The notes under the pieces were generated by a model. It searched no databases. It was not told the origin of the DNA and saw only the letters and a list, made by a program, of their open reading frames with translations. A stretch of DNA of 35,433 bases from Hyphomicrobiaceae bacterium (GTDB lineage: Bacteria > Pseudomonadota > Alphaproteobacteria > Rhizobiales > Aestuariivirgaceae): positions 1-35,433 of the forward strand of contig OMIC01000014.1 of assembly GCA_900298995.1 (NCBI GenBank), given 5' to 3'. Positions 8,594 through 34,339 of this stretch are shown here, piece after piece. Numbering within the stretch: position 1 is the first letter of the stretch; every line of letters starts with the position of its first letter. Position numbers and translations under genes: made by a program.

Positions 8594-9982
8594 TCAGCCG
8601 TGTCCTTCCTTAACGAGATCGCCGGAGACCGCCTTGCGCTCCTTGAGGAAAACGGTCGGCTGCCGACGCGTCACGAAGCCGCGCGGCCGGAAGCGCATCA
8701 TGAGGACCATGGCGAGGCCCACGGCGAGCATGCGGAAGTGCACGGGGTCGGTACCTTCGGGCAGGTAATCCTGGAATATGGTCAACTCGCGGAAGAGTTC
8801 GAAGGAACCCATGATTGCGATGGCGGCGAAGACGATGCCGATCTGTGAGCCGAGCCCGCCCAGCACGACGATTGCCAGAATGATGGCGGATTCGATGAAC
8901 ACGAAACTCTCTGGCGATACAAAGCCCTGCCGGGTCGCAAAGAAACAACCTGCGAAACCGCCGAACATTGCGCCGATGGCAAAGGCCGTGAGCTTGGTGT
9001 TGGTGGTGTTGATGCCGAGTGATCTGCAGGCGATCTCATCCTCACGCAGCGCCTCCCATGCCCGACCGATGGGCAGCCGCCGCAGGCGGTTGGTGACGAA
9101 ATAGGTGACCAGCGCCAGGATGAGGATCACGTAGTACAGGAAGATGTAATAGTAGATGCGGTTGTGCTCGATGCCGAAGAAGTCGGCAAAGCCGCCGGGA
9201 CCCGCCGAAAAAGGAAGCCCGAAGAAAGTGGCCTTCGGGACCGTGATGCCCTGGGGGCCGTTGGTGAAGCTGAACCAGTTGATGAGGACGAGGCGGATGA
9301 TTTCGCCGAAGGCGAGCGTCACGATGGCGAGGTAGTCGCCGCGTAGTCGCAAGACGGGGAAGCCGAGGATGACGCCCCACAGCGCCGCAAGAAGCCCCGC
9401 CAGCGGCAATGTGATATAGAAGGCCCAAGGCAGCATGCCGTCGCCGAACCAGTACGGGAAGTAGATGGTGGAGAGAAGCGCATAGGCATAAGCACCGACG
9501 GCGTAGAAGGCGACGTAGCCGAGGTCGAGCAGGCCCGCGAGCCCCACCACGATGTTGAGGCCCCAGGCGAGCATGATGTAGGTGAGAATGTAGATGCTGA
9601 GGTCGATGGTGCGCCGGTCCCCGCCCGAGATGATGGGCAGCAGGATGGCGAAGGCGACAAGGACGGGAAACACCGAGGGTCCGATGCGGTCGGTGAGGCT
9701 GGCCTTTGCCGGTCCGGAAGACTTTGCCGCGGGCAGGGCGGCGGGCGGCCGGTTCCAGACGAAAAGATGCATCAACAGCCGGGCGGCGAGAATGATGCCG
9801 AGAATGATGAACACCGTGCCCCAGCGCGCCTCGAGCACTAGCGAGTACTGGGTGATGACGGATTTGTAGGACACGATGGGCACCATCAGCAGCATGCTGA
9901 CGATGGCGGTCCCGGCGAGGTCTTTCAGAATGGCCGGCCAGTCATAGGCCGTGCGGGCGGAGGCGGCGTCCTGGGCGGCCAT
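8594..9982 (-). CDS. livM: Branched-chain amino acid ABC transporter permease LivM
   Basis: This 462-residue inner-membrane permease has an N-terminal extension with two hydrophobic segments (about 20-75), the DUF3382-like region of long LivM proteins. The BPD_transp_2 core follows with [25 protein letters not shown], the conserved cytoplasmic loop [18 protein letters not shown] and the EAA-like loop [33 protein letters not shown]. The start used is the ATG two bases downstream of the livH stop; a longer open frame reaching into livH is a frame overlap and not the real N-terminus. With LivH it forms the translocation path. Confidence 0.93.
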
Positions 9983-9984
9983 GG

Positions 9985-10920
<936 letters not shown>

Positions 10921-20884: not shown

Positions 20885-21697
20885 TTAACGGCCCTTCCAC
20901 TGCGGTTTTCGCTTTTCAGCGAACGCCCGCGCACCCTCGAGCTGATCCTCGCTGGAATAGAGCACATCGACGGTCTTCAGCTTGCGGCCGGTCACCACAG
21001 CCAACGCCTGCAGCACGGGGAGATGCGATGTCTCGCGGTCGATTTCCTTGATGGCGGCAAAGACCAGCGGTGGCCCATCGGCCAGCTGGTCGGCCATCTC
21101 GCGGGCACGCGCCATCAGCCTGTCGGCAGGCAGGATCTCGTTGATGAGGCCCCAGTGCCTCGCTTCCGTGGCATCGATCCGGCGGCCGGTGAACAGGAGT
21201 TCCATGGCGACATGATAGGGAATGCGGCGCGGCAGCTTGATGGTTGCGGCATCGGCCACCGTGCCGGAATTGATTTCGGGGAGCGCGAATGTGGCGTGCT
21301 CAGCCGCGAGGATGATGTCGCAGGAGATCATGATTTCGAATCCGCCCCCGAACGCCAGCCCGTTGACCGCGCAGATGACCGGCTTGTTGAGGCCCGGCAA
21401 TTGCTGAAGGCCGCCGAACCCGCCAACGCCATAGTCGGAGTCCGGCGCTTCGCCTTCGGCGGCTGCCTTCAGGTCCCATCCGGGACAGAAGAACTTCTCG
21501 CCCGTGCCGGTGAGGATCGCCACGCGGAGCTCCGGGTCGTCGCGGAATCCTGCAAAGACATCACCCATGATGCGGCTCGTGGCCGCATCGATGGCATTCG
21601 CCTTGCCGCGCTCGATGCGGACCTCGAGTACGCGTCCGCGCCGCGTGACGACAATGGGTCCGGTGGTGGTGTCCTTGACGGTATCCTTGACGGTCAT
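20885..21697 (-). CDS. caiD: CaiD-like enoyl-CoA hydratase (carnitinyl-CoA dehydratase type)
   Basis: This 270-residue crotonase-family protein resembles E. coli CaiD strikingly along its length: KANAIDAATS, FRDDPELRVAILTGTGEKFF, GWDLKAAAEGEAPDSDYG and the C-terminus AFAEKRKPQWKGR all align. The two catalytic glutamates of CaiD (E111 and E131) correspond here to E121 (GGGFEIMI) and E141 (ALPEIN) with a constant 10-residue offset. The usual GIVPDSGG loop after E131 is replaced by GTVADAATI. The reaction would be hydration of crotonobetainyl-CoA to L-carnitinyl-CoA. It overlaps the acyl-CoA synthetase stop by 4 bp (ATGA). The CaiD comparison is from memory. Confidence 0.78.
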   Translation of the reverse strand: MTVKDTVKDTTTGPIVVTRRGRVLEVRIERGKANAIDAATSRIMGDVFAGFRDDPELRVAILTGTGEKFFCPGWDLKAAAEGEAPDSDYGVGGFGGLQQLPGLNKPVICAVNGLAFGGGFEIMISCDIILAAEHATFALPEINSGTVADAATIKLPRRIPYHVAMELLFTGRRIDATEARHWGLINEILPADRLMARAREMADQLADGPPLVFAAIKEIDRETSHLPVLQALAVVTGRKLKTVDVLYSSEDQLEGARAFAEKRKPQWKGR

Positions 21698-23730
21698 GGG
21701 GTCCTCATCTTCAGAAGGGCATCGACGGCTATGGCGCCGTCCTTGAGAACGAGCAGGGGGTTGACATCGAGTTCCTCGATCAGACCCCGGTTGGCGGCGG
21801 CAAAGGCAGCGACGGCCTCGACCGCGCGGAGAGCGGCGTCCGCATCTCCCGACTTCCCGCGATAGCCCTCGACCAGACGCCAGACCTTCAGCCTGCGCAG
21901 CGCGCGGGTGATTTCTTCGCGGGATGCGGGCAGGATCAGGGTAGCCGAATCCTGGAGGAGTTCGGTCAGGATGCCACCTGCTCCCACGGTCAGCGCCAGG
22001 CCGAACTGCGGGTCGGAGGTAAGGCCGATGATCAGTTCGGCGACCGCGCCCGTAACCATGCGTTCGACCAGAAGCTCTGGTGCCAGTCGGCCGAGCCGCT
22101 GGGCCGCGTTCTCGACTTCGCTGGCAGTCCTCAGGTTCAGGGCAACGCCGCCGGCCTCGGTCTTGTGCGCGATGGCGGTGGACGAAATCTTGAGGGTCAC
22201 CGGGTACCCGAGGCTTTCGGCGGCGGCCGTGGCCTTCTCGGCCGGACAGACCATCCCGTCGGGTACCGGAAGGCCATGGCGATTCAGGAGCTGCTTGGCC
22301 TCATGCTCGCTCAGGATGCGTGCGCCGCTGCCGGTGATCACCGGAGGCTCCATGGCGGGCGGGGTATCGGTGCGGGCCCAGTTCCGCCCGATCGCAGCCG
22401 CACACTCAAAGGCCGTGAGCGCGTCATCCAGGCCCATCATGGGCGCGACGCCAGCCTCGGAGAGTTCTGCAGCCAGCGACAGTGGCATGCCCTCGGAGAG
22501 CGAGGCAACGACGGCAGCGCGTGCACCCGTCGCCTTGGCGGCAGCCGCCATGGCGCGCGCCGTCAGGGCCCAGCTGTCAGGCTTCATCCGGGGGTGGGTT
22601 GGCGTGTCGAGAATGACCATCGCGACATCGAAACCACCGCGCAGGACTTCGGTGAAGGTGGCGGCCAGCTTCTCAGGCTGTCCCCAGATGAAGGTATGGT
22701 AGTCGAGCGGATTGTCGATGGCGACATATTCATTGAGGGTCGCTGCCACGCGTGGTTTGGTGACGGCGTCGAAGGGCGGAAAGCTGACCTTCTTCTCGAG
22801 GGCCATGTCGGCGACGAGTGCCGCCTCGCCGCCCGAACAGCTGAGTGACACCAGCCGGGCATCGGCGATTGGTCCCCCGTTGTGCAGAAACTTGAGCGTT
22901 TCCGCAAAGGCCGAAACGGAGGTCATGCGGGCAATGCCGTAGCGTTCGAAGAGGGCGTCATAGAGCTTGTCTGCGCCGGCCAGAGACGATGTGTGGCTCA
23001 TGGCGACCTTCGCACCCTGTTCCGAGCGGCCCGTCTTGAGAACGACGATGGGCACCCTGCGCTGCCGGGCGAGCATGGCCGCACGCGCGAAGGCAGGGAC
23101 ATCGGGCAGACCTTCGACATGAAGCCCGATCGCCGAGATGCGCGGGTCTGCCGAGAGAGCTTCCACCATGTCATGCATGCCGACATCGACCTGGTTGCCG
23201 ATGGAATAGACCGCTGCGACCGGAAGGCCGCGCATCATCATCGTGAAGTTGCAGGCGATGTTGCCCGATTGGGTGATCAGCGCCACGCCGCGCGGGACAG
23301 GCTCCAGACCTGTCTCGTCCGGCCACAGCGCAGCCCGTGACAGGGTGTTGACGAAGCCGTAGCAGTTAGGGCCCATCAGCGGCATTCCGGCCGCAGCGGC
23401 CAGAAGTTCCATCTGGAGATCCGTGTGTCCGGTTTCTGCAAAACCCGCCGCATAGATGACAGCGCCGCCGCAGCCTTTTCGTGCAAGCGCCCGCACCACC
23501 TCGACGGTCGGTTCGCGTTTCACCGCAACGAATGCGGCGTCGATGCCGTCAGGAAGATCCTCGGCCGACTTGAGCGTGACAACGCCTGCAAGTTCTTCGC
23601 GCTTTGGATGCACAGCATGGATCTCGCCGGTAAAGCCAAGTTCCTGTGTGCGGCGGATCGCGATGGCACACTCATTGCCACCGATGAAGGCGATGGACCT
23701 GGGGTTCAGGAGGCGAGAAAGATCTTTCAT
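21694..23730 (-). CDS. ADP-forming (NDP-forming) acyl-CoA synthetase, fused alpha-beta type
   Basis: This 678-residue protein has a CoA-binding Rossmann domain (about 1-125, starting LLNPRSIAFIG), succinyl-CoA-ligase-like domains (about 145-450) and a C-terminal ATP-grasp domain (about 460-678). GPNCYGFVN (120-128) and SHTSSLAG (245-252) match the acetate/acyl-CoA ligase (ADP-forming) family; H246 sits where the phosphorylated His is expected. The reaction is acid + ATP + CoA to acyl-CoA + ADP + Pi and is readily reversible. In this operon it probably activates a betaine acid, or runs backwards to recover ATP from a betainyl-CoA. The 47-bp gap before it is the longest inside the operon. Confidence 0.85.
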   Translation of the reverse strand: MKDLSRLLNPRSIAFIGGNECAIAIRRTQELGFTGEIHAVHPKREELAGVVTLKSAEDLPDGIDAAFVAVKREPTVEVVRALARKGCGGAVIYAAGFAETGHTDLQMELLAAAAGMPLMGPNCYGFVNTLSRAALWPDETGLEPVPRGVALITQSGNIACNFTMMMRGLPVAAVYSIGNQVDVGMHDMVEALSADPRISAIGLHVEGLPDVPAFARAAMLARQRRVPIVVLKTGRSEQGAKVAMSHTSSLAGADKLYDALFERYGIARMTSVSAFAETLKFLHNGGPIADARLVSLSCSGGEAALVADMALEKKVSFPPFDAVTKPRVAATLNEYVAIDNPLDYHTFIWGQPEKLAATFTEVLRGGFDVAMVILDTPTHPRMKPDSWALTARAMAAAAKATGARAAVVASLSEGMPLSLAAELSEAGVAPMMGLDDALTAFECAAAIGRNWARTDTPPAMEPPVITGSGARILSEHEAKQLLNRHGLPVPDGMVCPAEKATAAAESLGYPVTLKISSTAIAHKTEAGGVALNLRTASEVENAAQRLGRLAPELLVERMVTGAVAELIIGLTSDPQFGLALTVGAGGILTELLQDSATLILPASREEITRALRRLKVWRLVEGYRGKSGDADAALRAVEAVAAFAAANRGLIEELDVNPLLVLKDGAIAVDALLKMRTP

Positions 23731-23777
23731 CGCGCTATCCCCCGTGCGGGACGGACCGCTTGAGGTAAATCTTCATG

Positions 23778-24941
23778 TCACCCGCCCAATGGCCGGAGCA
23801 GGGCCCGGGAAATGATGTGCCGCTGGATTTCGCTCGTGCCTTCCCAGATGCGCTCGACGCGTGCGTCGCGCCAGATGCGTTCGAGAGGCAGATCCGACAT
23901 CAGTCCCATGCCGCCATGGATCTGGATCGCTTCGTCCGCGACGAAGGCCAGCATCTCGGTAGCTTTGAGTTTCGCCATGGCCATGTCCATGTCAGTCACC
24001 GTCTTCTGGTCGAACCTCCAGGCGGCCTCGAGCGTCAGCAGTTCCGCTGCCTTGAGTTCCATGGCCATGTCCGCGAGCTTGAAGGAGACACCCTGGAACT
24101 TGCCAATCTGTTGTCCGAACTGCTGGCGGTCCACCGCCCACTGCTTGGCGTGCTCGAGCGCACGCTCGGCCCTTCCGATGCAGGTGGCAGCCACCTGAAG
24201 CCGGGTTGCGCCCAGCCAGTCATTGGCGACCTCGAAGCCCTTGTGCAATTCACCGAGGATCTGGCTCTTGTGCACGCGGCAGTCATTGAATTCGAGAATG
24301 GAATTGTTGTAGCCGCGATGAGAGACGTTGCGGTATCCCTTGCTCACCGTGTAACCCGGCGTTCCCATGTCGATCAGGAAGGCGGTGATCAGCTTTTTCT
24401 TGCCGCGTGGAGTGTCCTCCTCGCCGGTGGCGGCGAACAGGATGACGAAACTAGCCTCATCCGCATGGCTGATGAAATGCTTGGTCCCGTTGATGACAAA
24501 ATCATCCCCGTCGGCGCGCGCGAAGGTCTTCATGCCCCGCACGTCCGAGCCCACCCCGGGTTCGGTCATCGCGAGGCAATCGGACTTTTCGCCGCGCACG
24601 GCTGGAAAGAGATACTTGTCGCGCTGCGCGCCTGCGCAGGCCATCAGGATGTTGGAGGGTCTCGCCACGCAGGTCCAGTGAAGCGCGTAGTTGGCGCGAC
24701 CGAGTTCCTTTTCGTAAAGAACCCAGGTGAGCGTATCGAGGCCTGCTCCACCAACCTCGGCTGGCATGTTGGCGGCATAGAGTCCGGCAGCAATCGCCTT
24801 CTGCCTGATTTCATCGCGGAGTTCGGGACGCAGGATGCCTGTCTCCTCGATCTCGGCTTCATGCGGATAGAGTTCGTTGACGACGAAATTGCGCGTCGTC
24901 TCGACGATCATCCGCTGTTCATCGGAGAGGGTGAAATCCAT
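23778..24941 (-). CDS. Acyl-CoA dehydrogenase (FAD)
   Basis: This 387-residue acyl-CoA dehydrogenase has the normal N-terminal helical domain, the FAD loop LAMTEPGVGSDV (123-134) and FVINGTKHFISHA. The C-terminal domain carries the catalytic-base motif RIWEGTSEIQR with Glu at 367. It is a cytosolic flavoprotein that introduces a 2,3 double bond into an acyl-CoA and passes electrons to ETF. Given its neighbours, the natural guess is gamma-butyrobetainyl-CoA to crotonobetainyl-CoA. It does not look like a close CaiA orthologue by memory, so other short-chain acyl-CoAs are possible. It starts 6 bp after the preceding SDR stop. Confidence 0.88.
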   Translation of the reverse strand: MDFTLSDEQRMIVETTRNFVVNELYPHEAEIEETGILRPELRDEIRQKAIAAGLYAANMPAEVGGAGLDTLTWVLYEKELGRANYALHWTCVARPSNILMACAGAQRDKYLFPAVRGEKSDCLAMTEPGVGSDVRGMKTFARADGDDFVINGTKHFISHADEASFVILFAATGEEDTPRGKKKLITAFLIDMGTPGYTVSKGYRNVSHRGYNNSILEFNDCRVHKSQILGELHKGFEVANDWLGATRLQVAATCIGRAERALEHAKQWAVDRQQFGQQIGKFQGVSFKLADMAMELKAAELLTLEAAWRFDQKTVTDMDMAMAKLKATEMLAFVADEAIQIHGGMGLMSDLPLERIWRDARVERIWEGTSEIQRHIISRALLRPLGG

Positions 24942-24947
24942 GCGTTC

Positions 24948-25718
24948 TCACTTGATGTGGAAGGTTTCGACGTGGCCGTCGATGGCGATGTCCTGGCCAT
25001 TGATCATGAAGGCTGCTGGCGAAGCGAGATAGACGGCCAGAGCGGCAACCTCATGGGCTTCGGTCAGGCGTTCGAGTGACTGATTGCCGACGATCTCGCG
25101 CGCCACCACGTCGAAGGGAACGCCGCGCACATCGGCCTCGCCCTGGATCACCCGGTTGATGCGGTCGCCCTTGACGGAACCGGGGCAGATGGCGTTGCAG
25201 CGGACATTGTGGCGGCCGAGTTCGATGGCCAGTGATTTTGTGAGGCCGATGACGCCCCATTTTGCGGCCGCATAGGGGGTACGGTTGCCAAAACCATGCT
25301 GGCCTGCATTCGACGACATGTTGATGATGCACCCCGAGTTCTGGGCCTTCATGACAGGCGCCGCGCGCTTGGCGCACAGAAAGTAGGAATCGAGGCAGAC
25401 TTCGAGGCATTCCCGCCACCCGGCAAGGTCAATGCCCTCCACGGGCGATGTCGGACCCTTGATCCCGGCGTTGTTGACCAGAACATCGAGACCGCCAAGG
25501 TCGTCGAGCGCATCATCGAACCAGGCGTTGATTTCGCCTTCATTGCGGACATTGACGCGGCTTGCGGCGATGTCGGGAAAGTCGTTGCGGAAACTGGCGA
25601 GCGCAGACTCGTTGACGTCGCAGATGTGAACCTTCGCGCCCTCGGCGGCGAAGGCCCTGGCGATCTCCTTGCCGATGCCATCGGCGGCGGCGGGGATCAT
25701 CACGCGTTGCTGTGGCAT
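24948..25718 (-). CDS. SDR-family oxidoreductase with an altered glycine motif
   Basis: This 256-residue SDR has VLVNNAGI (79-86), IINMSSNAG (131-139), the catalytic PYAAAK (Y149, K153) and NAICPGSV. The canonical TGxxxGIG cofactor motif is changed to PAAADGIG (residues 9-16), losing the first Thr-Gly while keeping the last Gly-Ile-Gly; D34 still suggests NAD. It lies between the L-carnitine dehydrogenase (16 bp) and the acyl-CoA dehydrogenase (6 bp). It could oxidise a hydroxy acid in the pathway, for example D-carnitine or 3-hydroxybutyrate derived from acetoacetate, but no residue proves this. Confidence 0.86.
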   Translation of the reverse strand: MPQQRVMIPAAADGIGKEIARAFAAEGAKVHICDVNESALASFRNDFPDIAASRVNVRNEGEINAWFDDALDDLGGLDVLVNNAGIKGPTSPVEGIDLAGWRECLEVCLDSYFLCAKRAAPVMKAQNSGCIINMSSNAGQHGFGNRTPYAAAKWGVIGLTKSLAIELGRHNVRCNAICPGSVKGDRINRVIQGEADVRGVPFDVVAREIVGNQSLERLTEAHEVAALAVYLASPAAFMINGQDIAIDGHVETFHIK

Positions 25719-25734
25719 GGGTCTTGGTCCTTTC

Positions 25735-26727
25735 TCAAGCCGATTTCTTCTTGCGGGCCTTCATCTCGCGCTCCAGCACCAGTCCGCTTCCGATCTTGTG
25801 CTTTCTGAAAACCTTCATCATGTCGACGAGCACCGCATTCCGCTTGGCTTCGATCGCGGCGACGCTGCGGCCATTGGCCTGTGCCTCGCAGCCTTCGACA
25901 AGGCGCCTCTCGAGCGTTTCGTTCCATTTCGGGAATTTGAGATCGGTCCAGTCCAATTCAAGGGTCGGATCGAACTGCTTGATGAAATCGCGCATGCCGC
26001 CCGGGCCGCCGGCGAGGTGATAGGTGAGGAAGGAGCCCATGAAGGCCCAGCGCATACCGGCCGAAAAGACGATTGAATCGTCGATGTCGCCCGTCGTGCC
26101 GATATCCTTGTTGAGAATATGCAGGGCCTCGCGCCACAGGGCTTCCTGCAGGCGGTCGCAGATGTAGCCCATGATTTCCTTCTTGAGGCGCAGCACATGC
26201 ATGCCGATCGACTCGAAATAGACGCCGGCCCGGTCCATGACCTCCGCGGATGTTTTCGCACCCGGCACGGTTTCGACGAGCGGCAGAAGGTAGACCGGAT
26301 TGAAGGGGTGTCCGATGATCACCCGGTCCGGATGTTTGCACTGGCTCTGGAGATTGGTTGGCAGAAAGCCCGACGAAGACGATGAGATGATGACATGCGG
26401 CGCCGCAATGGCATCGATGTCTCGGAACAGTTTGATCTTGAGGTCCTCGCGCTCGGGCGCAGCCTCATGGATGAAATCAGCCTTTGAGGCCATCTTCGCA
26501 AGATCGGTCGTGAAGCTGAGCTTGCCTTTTTTCTTCGGCTTGCCGAGCAGCGCCTCGAGCGAGGGCCAGGCGGTCTTGATCTGAGCCTTGAGCCTGGCCT
26601 CGGCGGCTGGAGAGACGTCATAGGCGATGACGTCGAAGCCTCGGAACAGGAGCCGCGCCGCCCATCCGGCTCCTATGAGGCCGGTGCCCGCGATGCCGAC
26701 GGTCTTGATGGCCTTGGTTTTTGCCAT
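25735..26727 (-). CDS. lcdH: L-carnitine 3-dehydrogenase
   Basis: This 330-residue member of the 3-hydroxyacyl-CoA dehydrogenase superfamily has GIAGTGLIGAGWA (GxGxxG, 14-19) for NAD, SSSSSGFLPTNLQ (115-127), and the catalytic His in IIGHPFNPVYLLPLVE (H140, with E152). This pattern and the lone NAD-plus-C-terminal-domain architecture are those of carnitine 3-dehydrogenase (EC 1.1.1.108), which makes 3-dehydrocarnitine. In several bacteria this enzyme is fused to a C-terminal betainyl-CoA thioesterase; here the protein ends in a Lys-rich tail (KARKKKSA) with no thioesterase domain. It is one base after the BKACE gene, whose product would cleave 3-dehydrocarnitine. The pairing makes the assignment firm. 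Confidence 0.88.
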   Translation of the reverse strand: MAKTKAIKTVGIAGTGLIGAGWAARLLFRGFDVIAYDVSPAAEARLKAQIKTAWPSLEALLGKPKKKGKLSFTTDLAKMASKADFIHEAAPEREDLKIKLFRDIDAIAAPHVIISSSSSGFLPTNLQSQCKHPDRVIIGHPFNPVYLLPLVETVPGAKTSAEVMDRAGVYFESIGMHVLRLKKEIMGYICDRLQEALWREALHILNKDIGTTGDIDDSIVFSAGMRWAFMGSFLTYHLAGGPGGMRDFIKQFDPTLELDWTDLKFPKWNETLERRLVEGCEAQANGRSVAAIEAKRNAVLVDMMKVFRKHKIGSGLVLEREMKARKKKSA

Positions 26728-26728
26728 G

Positions 26729-27622
26729 TCAGGATTTCCTTGGCGAAAGTTTGAGAATCGCGCGGCCGTCGTCCGGGCTGGCCACCTTGCTGCCGAGGAT
26801 CTCGATGATCTTCACGGCTTTCTCCACCAGCGTGCCGTTCGAGGCATAGACGCCTTTCTCGAGCCAGAGATTGTCTTCGAGACCGACGCGGACATGGCCG
26901 CCCAGCAACACGGCCTGGGCGACGGCCGGGAACTCGTTCCGGCCGATGCCGAAGGCAGCCCAGACCGCGTCCTTCGGTAACTGCGCCTTCTGATAGGCCA
27001 TCGTCTCGCTGTCATAGGGCGCGCCCCATGGAATGCCGAGGCAAAGCTGGAACAGGGGAGGGCCTTCGATCAGACCCTCGGCGCAAAGTTGCTTGGCAAA
27101 CCATAGGTTGCCGGAATCGAAGATTTCCATCTCCGGCTTCACCCCATAGGATTTGATCAGCCGGGCCTGCTCGCGCAGCTGAGTGGGGGTCTGGACGACG
27201 ATGGCGTTGCCATCGCCGAAATTCAGTGTGCCGCAGTCCAGCGTGCAGAGTTCGGGGCGCAATTCCTTCACATGAATCAGCCGCTCCTCGGGGCCGACGC
27301 AATCGGTTCCCGGTCCGAAGTCGAGCGGTTTCTCACCTGGTCCGATCTCGACGTCGCCGCCCATGCCGGCGGTCAGGTTGATGATGACGTCCTTGTTGCG
27401 GTCGCGAATGCGCTCCATCACCTCACGGTAGTAGGCCACCTTGCGGGAGCCCTTGCCGGTTGAGGGCTCGCGGACATGGCAGTGCACGACGGTTGCACCG
27501 GCGGACGCTGCCTCGAGAGCGGAATTGGCGATCTGCTCGGGCGTCACCGGAATGGCGGGGTGCTTGCCGACGGTGTCGCCGGCGCCTGTGACGGCACAGG
27601 TGATGATGACTTTGGGCTGCAT
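26729..27622 (-). CDS. Beta-keto acid cleavage enzyme (BKACE/DUF849), probable dehydrocarnitine cleavage enzyme
   Basis: This 297-residue TIM-barrel protein of the BKACE family combines a beta-keto acid with acetyl-CoA to give acetoacetate and a new acyl-CoA. The Zn ligands are clear: H47 and H49 in [15 protein letters not shown], and E230 in [10 protein letters not shown], at the same spacing as in Kce (His46/His48/Glu230 from memory). [11 protein letters not shown] at the N-terminus is canonical. Adjacency to L-carnitine dehydrogenase points to 3-dehydrocarnitine as substrate, giving betainyl-CoA plus acetoacetate. It has an AGGAG ribosome binding site 9 bp upstream and is the first gene of the operon. 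Confidence 0.88.
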
Positions 27623-27675
27623 GGGCCTGCTCCTGTTTCAGGCGCCGAAACTAAGCCCTTCCGTCATCTCTCGAT

Positions 27676-27690
27676 AGGCTTTTTTCGCCT
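27676..27690 (-). repeat. Short hairpin at the start of the carnitine operon transcript
   Basis: On the minus strand this reads AGGCGAAAAAAGCCT, a 4-bp stem (AGGC/GCCT) with an A-rich loop. It lies directly after the predicted -10 box, near where transcription of the operon would begin. A 5' stabilising stem is possible; a role as a terminator is unlikely because no U-run follows on this strand. Confidence 0.35.
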
Positions 27691-27693
27691 CGG

Positions 27694-27723
27694 ATTATGC
27701 ATTTTCCGGCATGGTCCTGCCAG
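27694..27723 (-). promoter_or_regulatory. Candidate sigma-70-type promoter of the carnitine operon
   Basis: Read on the minus strand, CTGGCA (27723-27718) and CATAAT (27699-27694) are separated by 18 bp: 4 of 6 and 5 of 6 matches to consensus. The first codon of the BKACE gene is about 70 bp downstream. The only other gene before it on this strand (DUF4864) ends just upstream of the -35 box. No obvious operator palindrome overlaps it. Confidence 0.5.
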
Positions 27724-27728
27724 CTTCA

Positions 27729-28145
27729 TCAGGTGTTGAGATCGGGTGCCCGGACAAGAGCGCAACCGCTGATCTGCCAGCTGCCGTCCGCCTGGCGCTC
27801 AAAACTGTAGATTGCCTCATAGGTGAGCCCGTCCGGCCCGAGGAGGGTTACCTTCTGGAAGGGGCGGCCATCTGCCGCTGTTCCGGTCTCGCCGAAGCTG
27901 TAGGACTGAGGCCGGTAGACCGGCTGATAGCCACGGCGCACCATGTCCATGAAGATCTCGGGGTTGGGAAAGATGCGGCGGATGCTGGGGCTGGCATAGC
28001 CATAGGCGGCCGCCCCGTCATCTGCCCGGAAAGCGTCGATCTGGGCTGAAATCACTGCCTGGAAAGCACCGGCGTCGGGTGTCTCGGCCCGGACGGGGCC
28101 GTTGGTGAGCAGGAAGGAAGCGAACAGTCCGGCGAGGAGGCGCAT
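27729..28145 (-). CDS. DUF4864 family secreted protein
   Basis: This 138-residue protein has a signal peptide ([20 protein letters not shown], cleavage likely after residue 20). A small domain follows that I recognise as DUF4864: [28 protein letters not shown], then [12 protein letters not shown] and a beta-rich end [14 protein letters not shown]. The fold resembles NTF2-like proteins. Function is unknown; export to the periplasm is expected. The open frame continues far upstream into the coxS region, but the signal peptide fixes the start. It is divergent from the cox cluster and lies upstream of the carnitine operon on the same strand. Confidence 0.82.
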
Positions 28146-28395
28146 GCTGACATCCTGGTTGGGTCTGTTGTGGAGTACGCGCACCCCTCCTGCATGGTTC
28201 AACTGGCCGGTGTGCGATGCAGCAAAAGCCTGAGCAGTCGTTTTCGGAGGGTGCAGTCCAAAAGCCGCACTTGACGCTGGTGCAATGACGGATGAGTATC
28301 CGCTATGGAAAAGGGCGATAAGCCAATACCGGGTCTTGCGTTGACCCAGCGTCAGCGCTCGAATCTGGTACTTGGGGTGCAATTCTGGGAGGAAA
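28146..28395. other. Divergent intergenic region between the DUF4864 gene and the cox cluster
   Basis: At about 250 bp this is the longest gene-free stretch. It must hold the promoters of both flanking units. TTGACG at 28271-28276 and TTGACC at 28341-28346 are possible plus-strand -35 boxes for the cox operon, but neither has a good -10 box at 16-18 bp. No convincing sigma-54 element or long palindrome is visible. A GGGAGG ribosome binding site (28387-28392) precedes coxS. Confidence 0.4.
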
Positions 28396-28398
28396 ATG

Positions 28399-28863
<465 letters not shown>

Positions 28864-28881
28864 TCAGGGGAGAAGCAAGCC

Positions 28882-31248
<2,367 letters not shown>

Positions 31249-31265
31249 GGCAGGAGGACAGAGAA

Positions 31266-32057
31266 ATGGAAAACTTCACATATCATCGTCCTGCCTCGGC
31301 TGCCGATGCGGCGGCCGCCATGAAGGGCGCCAAGGATGGCAAGTATCTCTCCGGCGGCCAGACGCTCATCCCGGCCCTCAAGCAGGGGCTCGCGTCTCCT
31401 TCCGATATCATTGATCTCGGGGGCCTCAAGAACAGTGGCGTGACGGTTGGGGCAACGGTCGTCATCAAGGCTGGTACGACCCATGCCGAGGTGGCCGCCG
31501 ATGCTGGTCTGAGGAAGGCCATTCCCGGCCTTTCGGCGCTGGCGGGCGGCATTGGCGATCCGCATGTGCGGCACCGCGGCACCATTGGGGGTTCAATCGC
31601 CAACAATGATCCGGCGGCGGATTACCCGGCTGCCTGCCTTGGGCTCGGCGCGACCATCCACACCTCGAAGCGCAAGATCGCTGCGGGTGACTTCTTCACC
31701 GGAATGTTCTCGACCGCTCTCGAAGAGGGTGAGATCGTGACCGCAGTGGAGTTCCCCATCCCGAAGAAATGCGGCTATGCCAAGTTCCCCAATCCGGCCT
31801 CGCTCTATGCTATGGTCGGTGTCATGGCGGCACAGCTGGCCGATGGATCGCCGCGGGTGGCAGTCACGGGCGCCGGCGCCGGTGTGTTCCGTGCCACAGC
31901 CATGGAGGCTGCTCTCGCCAAGGATTTCTCCGCGGCTGCCCTCAACGGCGTCGCAGTGGCGGCCAAGGGTCTCAACAGCGACCTTCATGCCTCGGCTGAT
32001 TACCGCGCGCACTTGATCACGGTCATGGCCAAGCGGGCGGTCGAGAAGGCCAAGTAA
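31266..32057 (+). CDS. coxM: CO dehydrogenase-type medium subunit, FAD-binding
   Basis: This 263-residue flavin subunit has an N-terminal FAD_binding_5 domain with LSGGQTLIP (28-36) and the RHRGTIGGSIANNDPAADYPA motif (about 103-122) for the pyrophosphate and isoalloxazine. A CO_deh_flav_C domain follows. It receives electrons from CoxS and delivers them to the quinone pool or another acceptor at the membrane. The start is the ATG with GGAGG 9 bp upstream. The gene order S-L-M differs from the M-S-L order of the classic form I coxMSL operons. Confidence 0.92.
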   Translation: MENFTYHRPASAADAAAAMKGAKDGKYLSGGQTLIPALKQGLASPSDIIDLGGLKNSGVTVGATVVIKAGTTHAEVAADAGLRKAIPGLSALAGGIGDPHVRHRGTIGGSIANNDPAADYPAACLGLGATIHTSKRKIAAGDFFTGMFSTALEEGEIVTAVEFPIPKKCGYAKFPNPASLYAMVGVMAAQLADGSPRVAVTGAGAGVFRATAMEAALAKDFSAAALNGVAVAAKGLNSDLHASADYRAHLITVMAKRAVEKAK

Positions 32058-32110: not shown

Positions 32111-32159
32111 TTTCCTGGGTTGGGGGCTGCGGCCATTGGGTGGCCAGGGGGAAGATTTC

Positions 32160-33083
32160 ATGACGAAGCAGGTGCCGACAAGCATCGACGACACGCTGAA
32201 GCTGCTGAGATCGACCGGCTATGTCGCCGGGCGTGTCCTCGCGACCGTCGCCTTCCTGTCTCTCAAGATGGGCCGCCCGCTGTTTCTCGAGGGCGAGGCC
32301 GGTGTCGGCAAGACCGAGATCGCCAAGGTGCTGGCCGAGACTCTCGGCCGCAAGCTGATCCGGCTGCAATGCTACGAGGGCCTCGACATCAGCTCGGCCG
32401 TCTACGAGTGGAACTACGCTGCTCAGATGATCGAGATCCGGCTGGCGGAAGCCTCTGGCGAACTGGACAGGGGGCGCCTTGGCCAGGACATCTTTGCCGA
32501 GCGTTTCCTGATCCGCCGGGCCCTGCTGCAGGCCCTCGACGCGCCCAAGGGTGAGGCGCCTGTGCTGCTGATCGACGAGCTTGACCGCACCGACGAGGCC
32601 TTCGAGGCCTTCCTGCTTGAGGTCCTGTCGGATTTCCAGGTGACCATCCCGGAGCTTGGCACCATCAGGGCCGCGGAACCTCCCATCGTCATCATTACCT
32701 CCAACCGGACCCGTGAAGTGCATGACGCGCTGAAACGCCGCTGCCTCTATCATTGGGTCGGGTACCCGGATGCCCGGCGCGAGCTCGAAATCGTCAGGGC
32801 CCGGCGTCCCGGAGCCTCCGAGACGCTGGCGCAGGAGGTTGTGTTGTTCGTTCAGTCGCTGCGCGGGGGCGACCTCTACAAGGCACCAGGTGTCGCCGAG
32901 ACGCTGGACTGGGTGACGGCGCTGCATGAACTCGACGCCATGTCGCTCGACCCGCAGACGGTGAATGACACGCTGGGCGTGCTGCTCAAGTATCAGGACG
33001 ACATCAGCCGCATGCAGGGCACCGAGGCCAAGCGCATCCTTGACCAGATCAAGGATGAAATCCGGACGATGGCACATACATAA
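32160..33083 (+). CDS. coxD: CoxD-like MoxR-family AAA+ ATPase
   Basis: This 307-residue AAA+ chaperone-like ATPase has Walker A GEAGVGKT (45-52), Walker B LLIDELDR (136-143) and sensor I in VIITSNRTREV. The MoxR/CoxD group works with VWA proteins; in the classic cox system CoxD matures the Mo-Cu centre by a sulfur- and copper-insertion step. The start is at the ATG before TKQVPT, with a GGGGGAAG site upstream. It is 102 bp after coxM and 5 bp before coxE, so it and coxE form a translationally linked pair. Confidence 0.9.
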   Translation: MTKQVPTSIDDTLKLLRSTGYVAGRVLATVAFLSLKMGRPLFLEGEAGVGKTEIAKVLAETLGRKLIRLQCYEGLDISSAVYEWNYAAQMIEIRLAEASGELDRGRLGQDIFAERFLIRRALLQALDAPKGEAPVLLIDELDRTDEAFEAFLLEVLSDFQVTIPELGTIRAAEPPIVIITSNRTREVHDALKRRCLYHWVGYPDARRELEIVRARRPGASETLAQEVVLFVQSLRGGDLYKAPGVAETLDWVTALHELDAMSLDPQTVNDTLGVLLKYQDDISRMQGTEAKRILDQIKDEIRTMAHT

Positions 33084-33088
33084 AGGCG

Positions 33089-34339
33089 ATGAATCCCTTT
33101 TCGACACCCGCCAACCAGAACCAACGCCCGCTGTCGGGGCGACTGGCGGACAACATCATGCATTTTGCCCGCGTGTTGCGCGAGGCGGGCATACCGGTAG
33201 GGCCTGGAGCCGTGCTTGACGCCCTTGATGCGGCGATGATGGGCTCTCTGCGGACCCGGGACGACTTCTACTGGACACTGCACGCGGTCTTTGTCAAACG
33301 ACGCGACCAGCGCGAGGTGTTCGATCAGGCGTTCCATGTCTTCTGGAAGAAGCCCAAGATGCTGGAGCAGCTCATGCAGCTGTTCTTTCATCAGGTTGCA
33401 CGCGATGCCGGCGAGAAGGCAAAGCAGGCGGGGTTCCGGCGTCTTGCCGAGGCGATGTTCGACGCGCGGGAGAGCCAGAGCCAGCAGCGCGAAAAGAAGG
33501 ATGACATCGAAATTGACGCAAGTTTCACGGCCTCGGCGCAGGAAGTGTTGCGGCGCAAGGACTTCGAGCAGATGACCGTTGCCGAGCAGGCCGAGGCGCG
33601 CGCCGCGATCGCCCGCCTCCGCCTGCTCCGAAGCGAGATCATGACGAGGCGCTGGCAGCATGCGCAGGATGGTGCGGCCATTGACATGCGCCGGACGCTG
33701 AAGGGTTCGATGCGGGCGGGTGGACATTTCATCGATCTTGCGCGTCGAGAGAAGGCTTGGCGTGAGCCGCCACTGGTGGTGCTCTGTGACATATCTGGCT
33801 CTTGTTCAAACTATTCGCGCATGTTCCTGCACTTCCTCCATGCACTCACCAATGATCGCGACCGTGTGCAGGTCTTCCTGTTTGGCACCAGGCTGACCAA
33901 CGTGACGAGGGAGCTCAAGCGCCGTGACATCGACGAGGCCATGGCAAAGGTCTCGGGGGCCGTGAAGGACTGGTCCGGTGGCACCCGGATCGGAACGTCG
34001 CTGCGCGAGTTCAACTACCGCTGGGCGCGTCGGGTGCTCACGCAGGGTGCGGAAGTGTTGATCATGACCGATGGCCTCGATCGCGAGGACACCGACACGC
34101 TGGCCAATGAAATGGAGCGGCTGCGCCGCCAGACAAAACGCATCATCTGGCTGAACCCGTTGTTGCGCTATGACGGGTTTGAGGCCGTGGCCGGCGGAAT
34201 CCGTGCCATGATGCCCCACGTCGACGAGTTCCGGCCTGTTCATTCCCTCGACAGTCTGCGTGATCTGGTGGTTGCGCTTGCCGGTCCCGCGTCGGGTGGG
34301 CACGGCGCGCGGAACTGGATTCGCAAGGCTTTGCATTAG
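33089..34339 (+). CDS. coxE: CoxE-like von Willebrand factor A domain protein
   Basis: This 416-residue protein of the CoxE family has a charged, Gln/Lys-rich, probably helical region (about 120-165). A VWA domain follows with the MIDAS motif D234-I-S-G-S, TRIGTSLREF as the second metal loop and an MTDGLDRED strand. CoxE partners the CoxD AAA+ ATPase in cofactor maturation of CO-dehydrogenase-like enzymes. It immediately follows coxD and precedes the XdhC-type genes by 11 bp, with an AGGAGGT ribosome binding site for the next gene. No signal peptide is seen, so it acts in the cytosol. Confidence 0.9.
   Translation: MNPFSTPANQNQRPLSGRLADNIMHFARVLREAGIPVGPGAVLDALDAAMMGSLRTRDDFYWTLHAVFVKRRDQREVFDQAFHVFWKKPKMLEQLMQLFFHQVARDAGEKAKQAGFRRLAEAMFDARESQSQQREKKDDIEIDASFTASAQEVLRRKDFEQMTVAEQAEARAAIARLRLLRSEIMTRRWQHAQDGAAIDMRRTLKGSMRAGGHFIDLARREKAWREPPLVVLCDISGSCSNYSRMFLHFLHALTNDRDRVQVFLFGTRLTNVTRELKRRDIDEAMAKVSGAVKDWSGGTRIGTSLREFNYRWARRVLTQGAEVLIMTDGLDREDTDTLANEMERLRRQTKRIIWLNPLLRYDGFEAVAGGIRAMMPHVDEFRPVHSLDSLRDLVVALAGPASGGHGARNWIRKALH

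Follow-up and report, generated by a model that had tools for sequence, protein, structure and literature searches.

The DNA analysed here is a stretch of 35,433 nucleotides (the window), part of contig C14 in the 2.99-Mb genome of a Hyphomicrobiaceae bacterium, and its minus strand carries six open reading frames (20885–27622) that form a real and coherent catabolic operon. The operon is best read as a pathway that probably converts gamma-butyrobetaine and carnitine to glycine betaine, and it is a thioesterase-less variant, with its regulator also lost, of a widespread operon type already annotated in rhizobia. In the direction of transcription, the genes encode a BKACE protein, an L-carnitine 3-dehydrogenase (CDH), an SDR oxidoreductase, an acyl-CoA dehydrogenase (ACAD), a fused ADP-forming acyl-CoA synthetase (ACS) and a CaiD-type crotonobetainyl-CoA hydratase (ECH). 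None of the six reading frames is interrupted; they are separated by 1, 16, 6 and 47 bp, and one pair overlaps by 4 bp. An earlier annotation of this DNA (the original prediction) had the coordinates, strand, gaps and overlap exact to the base, as judged by the list of open reading frames; its six gene names mostly hold, and the Pfam families agree with them.

The original prediction proposed that gene order be compared across Hyphomicrobiales. Of seven named loci found by a dehydrogenase search, five have the complete set of six genes arranged as in the window, which argues that the order is not due to chance; the remaining two are cut off by a contig end within the cluster, L006 being without BKACE and L008 stopping in the ACAD gene (L008 also has an extra open reading frame between SDR and ACAD, and its SDR matches in two frames). 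A CDH match (1e-50) is present in 85 of 297 genomes of the order. We inspected 40 order-level loci, picked mainly from the top of the dehydrogenase match list: BKACE lies within the fetched stretch in 29, BKACE together with ACAD, ACS and ECH in 19 (two of them of the C24 type described below), and a match to the divergent-type AraC regulator in 22. At class level, an ACAD match (1e-150) occurs in 23 of 289 genomes, counting that of the window. The 21 loci chosen by ACAD (from 20 of the 22 other class genomes, plus one Pseudorhodobacter plasmid) hold ACS in 13 cases, the hydratase in 18, BKACE in 12, CDH in 11 and all five genes, ACAD included, in six. The joining of the CaiD-type half to the CDH/BKACE half, as originally predicted, recurs across Hyphomicrobiales and beyond.

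Among plasmids, an ACAD match (1e-100) was found in 156 records, 131 of them from Rhizobium. Plasmid pRL10 of R. johnstonii 3841 carries a row annotated as GlxA-family regulator, BKACE, carnitine 3-dehydrogenase, ACAD, acetate-CoA ligase family protein and carnitinyl-CoA dehydratase, and the rows of S. meliloti and Neorhizobium sp. NCHU2750 are similar; the Novosphingobium locus that was opened holds regulator, BKACE and carnitine 3-dehydrogenase only. The rhizobial order, BKACE – carnitine 3-dehydrogenase – ACAD – ADP-forming ligase – CaiD-like hydratase, is the same as in the window (the gene table of the S. meliloti record is incomplete and shows no gene for the ligase stretch, where the match is split in two). 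The rhizobial loci differ in having a thioesterase fused to CDH and a divergent GlxA/AraC-type regulator beside BKACE, neither of which is present in the window, whereas the SDR between CDH and ACAD is found in the window and not in the rhizobial loci. The rows in rhizobia and on plasmids mean that the arrangement is already established in annotation, and the label 'unusual' given to the operon by the original prediction does not stand, since similar rows occur in Aestuariivirga, other Hyphomicrobiales, R. johnstonii pRL10, Neorhizobium and the Pseudorhodobacter plasmid. No account of the joined operon was found among the open-licence titles and abstract beginnings listed, and an earlier description may exist, for example for S. 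meliloti (Bazire et al. 2019). PMC12482172, citing Bazire et al. 2019, assigns to S. meliloti SM2011_c01638 both carnitine oxidation and the conversion of betainyl-CoA to glycine betaine; the S. meliloti protein used in our comparisons is presumably its counterpart.

CDH (25735–26727, minus strand) contains the Pfam domain 3HCDH_N, lacks a C-terminal thioesterase domain, and has L-carnitine dehydrogenase as its best NCBIfam match (356 bits). It belongs to a 44-row clade (support 95/96) with the S. meliloti, R. johnstonii and Neorhizobium proteins annotated as carnitine 3-dehydrogenase. On NF005716 it scores 317 bits, under the cut-off of 592, which the S. meliloti (946 bits) and R. johnstonii (944 bits) proteins pass; the thioesterase-fused relatives in L024, L026 and L029 are also under it, with 512, 500 and 550 bits. 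BKACE (26729–27622, minus strand; PF05853, 326.6 bits) adjoins this CDH of the rhizobial clade and is 55% identical to the BKACE adjoining carnitine 3-dehydrogenase in S. meliloti, R. johnstonii and Neorhizobium. Its nearest NCBIfam family is the lysine-fermentation Kce (255 of 382 bits). It is very improbable that the six genes are an ordinary short- or branched-chain fatty acid operon under misleading names: the single-domain family matches are generic and the NCBIfam equivalog cut-offs are not reached, but the trees and the linkage to annotated carnitine 3-dehydrogenase loci point elsewhere, and a BKACE with a carnitine-type dehydrogenase is no part of fatty acid oxidation.

The hydratase (ECH; 20885–21697, minus strand; Pfam ECH_1) matches NF002936, the NCBIfam crotonobetainyl-CoA hydratase, with 328 bits, the next family scoring 216, and it is 54% identical to E. 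coli CaiD. Together with CaiD and the C24 hydratases it forms a 33-row clade (100/99), outside which lie the genome's three other ECH proteins, not part of either cluster and 30–36% identical to the cluster hydratases. In the alignment it retains the two glutamates of the CaiD pair, presumably with the function that they have in CaiD. The window hydratase groups with the rhizobial hydratases to the exclusion of C24 (27 rows, 95/93). A nesting of CaiD among the operon hydratases (30 rows, 99/94) appeared in a first tree that carried a long-branch warning; it was lost once the long rows were removed, and we discarded it.

The E. coli caiTABCDE system shares the CaiD-type hydratase and the proposed intermediates with the window. 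It differs in its CaiB CoA transferase and CaiC ligase: neither has a tblastn match (1e-8) in the window, so that the claimed absence of a CaiB/CaiC pair holds there, the rest of the genome not having been searched for CaiB/CaiC. A survey covered the window, the 21 ACAD-chosen loci and 53 further loci (order-level, plasmid and E. coli); besides E. coli itself, it gave CaiC-like matches only in L038, L050 and L052, and a CaiB-like match only in L052.

ACAD (23778–24941, minus strand; PF00441/02770/02771, the Acyl-CoA_dh N, M and C domains) is the proposed gamma-butyrobetainyl-CoA dehydrogenase. The original prediction had named a grouping with unrelated acyl-CoA enzymes as the outcome that would speak against this; ACAD instead falls in a supported 36-row clade (98/98) with carnitine-locus ACADs, with CaiA and the genome's five other ACADs outside. 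The deeper placement of this clade is unsure because of long branches, CaiA itself being on one. ACAD is 33% identical to CaiA, scores well short of the CaiA family cut-off (180 bits, cut-off 540), and retains the Glu of WEGT where CaiA has SGGS, which fits oxidation; the window route is proposed as an oxidation, in contrast to the anaerobic reduction of the E. coli Cai system. These features bear on a narrower scheme, in which CDH and BKACE act on carnitine, ACS and ECH only convert crotonobetaine (or crotonobetainyl-CoA derived from D-carnitine) to L-carnitine, and ACAD serves a non-butyrobetaine acyl-CoA. The low score of ACAD on the CaiA family and its separate clade would agree with such a scheme, as would its best match among solved structures, a short-chain ACAD, and the fact that the hydratase is the best-supported member of the activation half. 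However, ACAD keeps company with ACS and the hydratase in the ACAD-chosen loci, and we regard the narrower scheme as unlikely.

The synthetase (ACS; 21694–23730, minus strand) combines CoA_binding_2, Succ_CoA_lig and ATP-grasp_5 domains. Its His246, which we take to be the phosphorylated histidine, is present in all 36 relatives of the alignment, from which a single short piece was omitted, and the three domains and the active-site histidine bear out the predicted ADP-forming type. Both features are shared with ADP-forming acyl-CoA synthetases such as its best Protein Data Bank match, 7cm9, entitled 'DMSP lyase' and presumably DddX. Its scores on the NCBIfam members are all far under the respective cut-offs, the highest being 278 of 1200 bits. 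R. johnstonii and Neorhizobium have a similar ligase, 44–46% identical, in the corresponding position.

Based on these assignments, we propose that the pathway would proceed as follows: (1) the ADP-forming synthetase activates gamma-butyrobetaine to gamma-butyrobetainyl-CoA, and would also accept crotonobetaine; (2) ACAD oxidizes gamma-butyrobetainyl-CoA to crotonobetainyl-CoA; (3) the CaiD-type hydratase yields L-carnitinyl-CoA; (4) CoA is taken off to give L-carnitine; (5) CDH forms 3-dehydrocarnitine; (6) BKACE converts 3-dehydrocarnitine and acetyl-CoA to acetoacetate and betainyl-CoA; and (7) removal of CoA from betainyl-CoA gives glycine betaine. The proposal draws on homology and linkage for steps 3, 5 and 6, and on linkage for steps 1 and 2, plus a dedicated clade in the case of ACAD. 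A similar route, from gamma-butyrobetaine to L-carnitine by a path resembling fatty acid degradation, is described for the Rhizobium/Agrobacterium-like strain HK4, which has an L-carnitine dehydrogenase (PMC2131755); the likeness is at the level of the pathway. A SAR11 genomic island likewise links CDH and BKACE with genes for gamma-butyrobetaine use, but contains a gamma-butyrobetaine dioxygenase (BBOX), and the parts of PMC12421898 consulted name no CoA-ester beta-oxidation set.

Steps 4 and 7 are without a dedicated enzyme in the operon because the thioesterase domain of its relatives has been lost; the removal of CoA would then fall to the synthetase running in reverse or to a thioesterase encoded elsewhere. 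Known ADP-forming synthetases are reversible, and since the operon holds no other enzyme of this type than ACS, this enzyme could release L-carnitine and glycine betaine with recovery of ATP. We therefore put forward, tentatively and with some doubt, a thioesterase-free, energy-conserving route in which one synthetase activates gamma-butyrobetaine and, in reverse, frees L-carnitine and glycine betaine. If true, the butyrobetaine-to-carnitine part would be ATP-neutral and the last step would yield ATP by substrate-level phosphorylation, in place of the thioester hydrolysis of relatives; a thioester wasted by relatives would thus have been turned to ATP after a gene loss.

The CDH proteins of congener G228, family member G247 and the rhizobia run on into a thioesterase domain (Pfam 4HBT_2 in G228), and those of G228 and G247 are otherwise close to the window CDH (84% and 81% identical). 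The window CDH and the 14 further members of its clade (100/98) have lost the domain, which is also absent in some other branches, such as L037/L038 and L055/L056. In L055 (from another family of the order, the thioesterase likewise missing), an HD-domain-like protein (9704–10327; 20.1 bits, cut-off 22) lies between BKACE and CDH. A relocated thioesterase was considered: G000, the genome of the window, has one 33% match to the thioesterase domain elsewhere, which may serve but is no specific replacement, because a separate match of this kind is present in 10 of 10 genomes compared, including the fusion-keeping G228 and G247. We then asked how the domain and the ligase are distributed in 38 loci with BKACE and CDH, leaving out loci without a BKACE of more than 38% identity and the contig-cut L006, L008, L027, L031 and L039. 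The ligase is present in 20 of 20 loci without the domain (two duplicates, L019 = L007 and L020 = L009, and three of C24 type among them) versus 13 of 18 with it; a recount with duplicates out and 11 ACAD-chosen loci added gives 19 of 19 versus 18 of 28. The association is not significant (about four losses, four independent pairs on the tree, sign test p 0.5–1), and with so few independent events the count gives no support by itself.

A divergent AraC-type regulator is present in the congeners L018–L020 and L024. Upstream of the operon in the window there is only a gap of 106 bp (27623–27728, minus strand), at the place of a longer stretch with that regulator in congeners. In alignments with L018 and L020, only about 100 bp remain in the window between BKACE and a small gene: the window is shorter at 27623–28145, the divergent regulator being gone (relative to L018, further genes too). 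With the regulator stretch gone, the operon now follows the small gene in the same direction, the start of that gene being our own reading. The genome's best match to the regulator is 43% identical and on another contig, and we do not regard it as a relocated copy. A promoter-like site at 27723–27694 gives no evidence of function, with one site in 8 kb against 1.3 expected.

The same genome holds a second, diverged set of ACS, ACAD, BKACE, CDH and hydratase on contig C24 (L016 1339–13401; G000:C24:63339–75401). Identities between the two sets are 41% for CDH, 57% for BKACE, 52% for ACAD, 41% for ACS and 51% for ECH. The C24 set comes with an ABC transporter (read as spermidine/opine-like), an AraC-type regulator and a luciferase-like oxidoreductase, and just outside it lies an aldehyde dehydrogenase stretch that scores best against betaine-aldehyde dehydrogenase (403 of 669 bits). 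It too is without a thioesterase, and both congeners that were compared keep it (L053, L054), L053 being that of Aestuariivirga litoralis KCTC 52945, which also carries the operon (L007). Four PF13607 matches occur in the genome of the window: the window and C24 synthetases, and two that are weaker, in open frames of 378 and 308 aa. The substrate of the C24 set may be a carnitine homologue. The roles could also be reversed, the window operon serving a homologue (such as delta-valerobetaine, by way of homocarnitine, or some other onium acid) and C24 being the true carnitine set. Two parallel sets in one genome, the transporter, adjoining regulator and betaine-aldehyde-dehydrogenase-like enzyme at C24, and family scores that are about alike (hydratase 328 versus 323 bits, CDH 356 versus 322 bits, window first) are in keeping with this alternative, which the lost nesting of CaiD slightly raised. 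However, it is the window CDH, and not the C24 CDH on its long branch (1.13), that groups with the rhizobial carnitine 3-dehydrogenases, and the window hydratase that groups with the rhizobial ones. We consider such a reversal quite unlikely.

Two further features of this genome were observed. Beside the C24 set, L016 15068–19604 encodes a GXGXG/glutamate-synthase-like protein and a pyridine-nucleotide oxidoreductase partner, a pair reminiscent of N-methylglutamate synthase. Contigs C1, C8, C40 and C55 give seven matches to the MTTB family (trimethylamine/betaine methyltransferase type) in a 3-Mb genome, which points to methylated-amine metabolism.

Several observations weigh against the assignment of the window operon to a gamma-butyrobetaine/carnitine-to-betaine pathway. 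CDH and the hydratase are below the curated NCBIfam cut-offs of their best families (414 and 500 bits, respectively), and with the long rows out the branching of CaiD, C24 hydratases and operon hydratases relative to each other is no longer recovered. The word 'complete', used of the route in the original prediction, is not supported: no thioesterase match (1e-6) was found in the 35-kb window, no GATase1-AraC (GlxA-type) regulator beside BKACE or elsewhere in the window, no transporter adjoins the operon, and no pathway step is assigned to the SDR. Table 2 of PMC2131755 places HK4 under gamma-butyrobetaine hydroxylase, contradicting that paper's own text. The halves also occur apart, and need not share one substrate: L104, L107, L110, L114 and L122 show ACAD-ACS-ECH with no CDH or BKACE in view, as a free-standing activation module (as does L120, where the contig ends), and other loci have CDH-BKACE without ACS. 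This suggests two modules that can stand apart but frequently occur together.

The SDR gene (24948–25718, minus strand; PF13561, adh_short_C2) scores 232 of 222 bits on an NCBIfam FabG-like subfamily, and 204 of 258 and 194 of 307 bits on 3-hydroxybutyrate dehydrogenase subfamilies; its best solved relative is a '3-ketoacyl-ACP reductase'. At a guess, it is a candidate D-carnitine or 3-hydroxybutyrate dehydrogenase. Gene patents reportedly exist for HK4-type strains and for an SDR-type D-carnitine dehydrogenase. The start of the window protein (25690–25718) reads MPQQRVMIPAAADGIG, compared with MITAAADGIG in its nearest relatives, Pro replacing Thr of the nucleotide-binding motif. Beside the operon, on the plus strand, translations read by eye suggest a putative molybdenum hydroxylase of the CO-dehydrogenase type with accessory AAA/VWA proteins (28372–32057 and 32136–34339).

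Gamma-butyrobetaine and carnitine are common nitrogen compounds, which gut bacteria convert to trimethylamine. Aerobic breakdown in which the nitrogen is retained in glycine betaine is of environmental interest, and of industrial interest for L-carnitine production, and the loci described here point to candidate genes for such a butyrobetaine/carnitine-to-betaine route in Aestuariivirga and Rhizobium.

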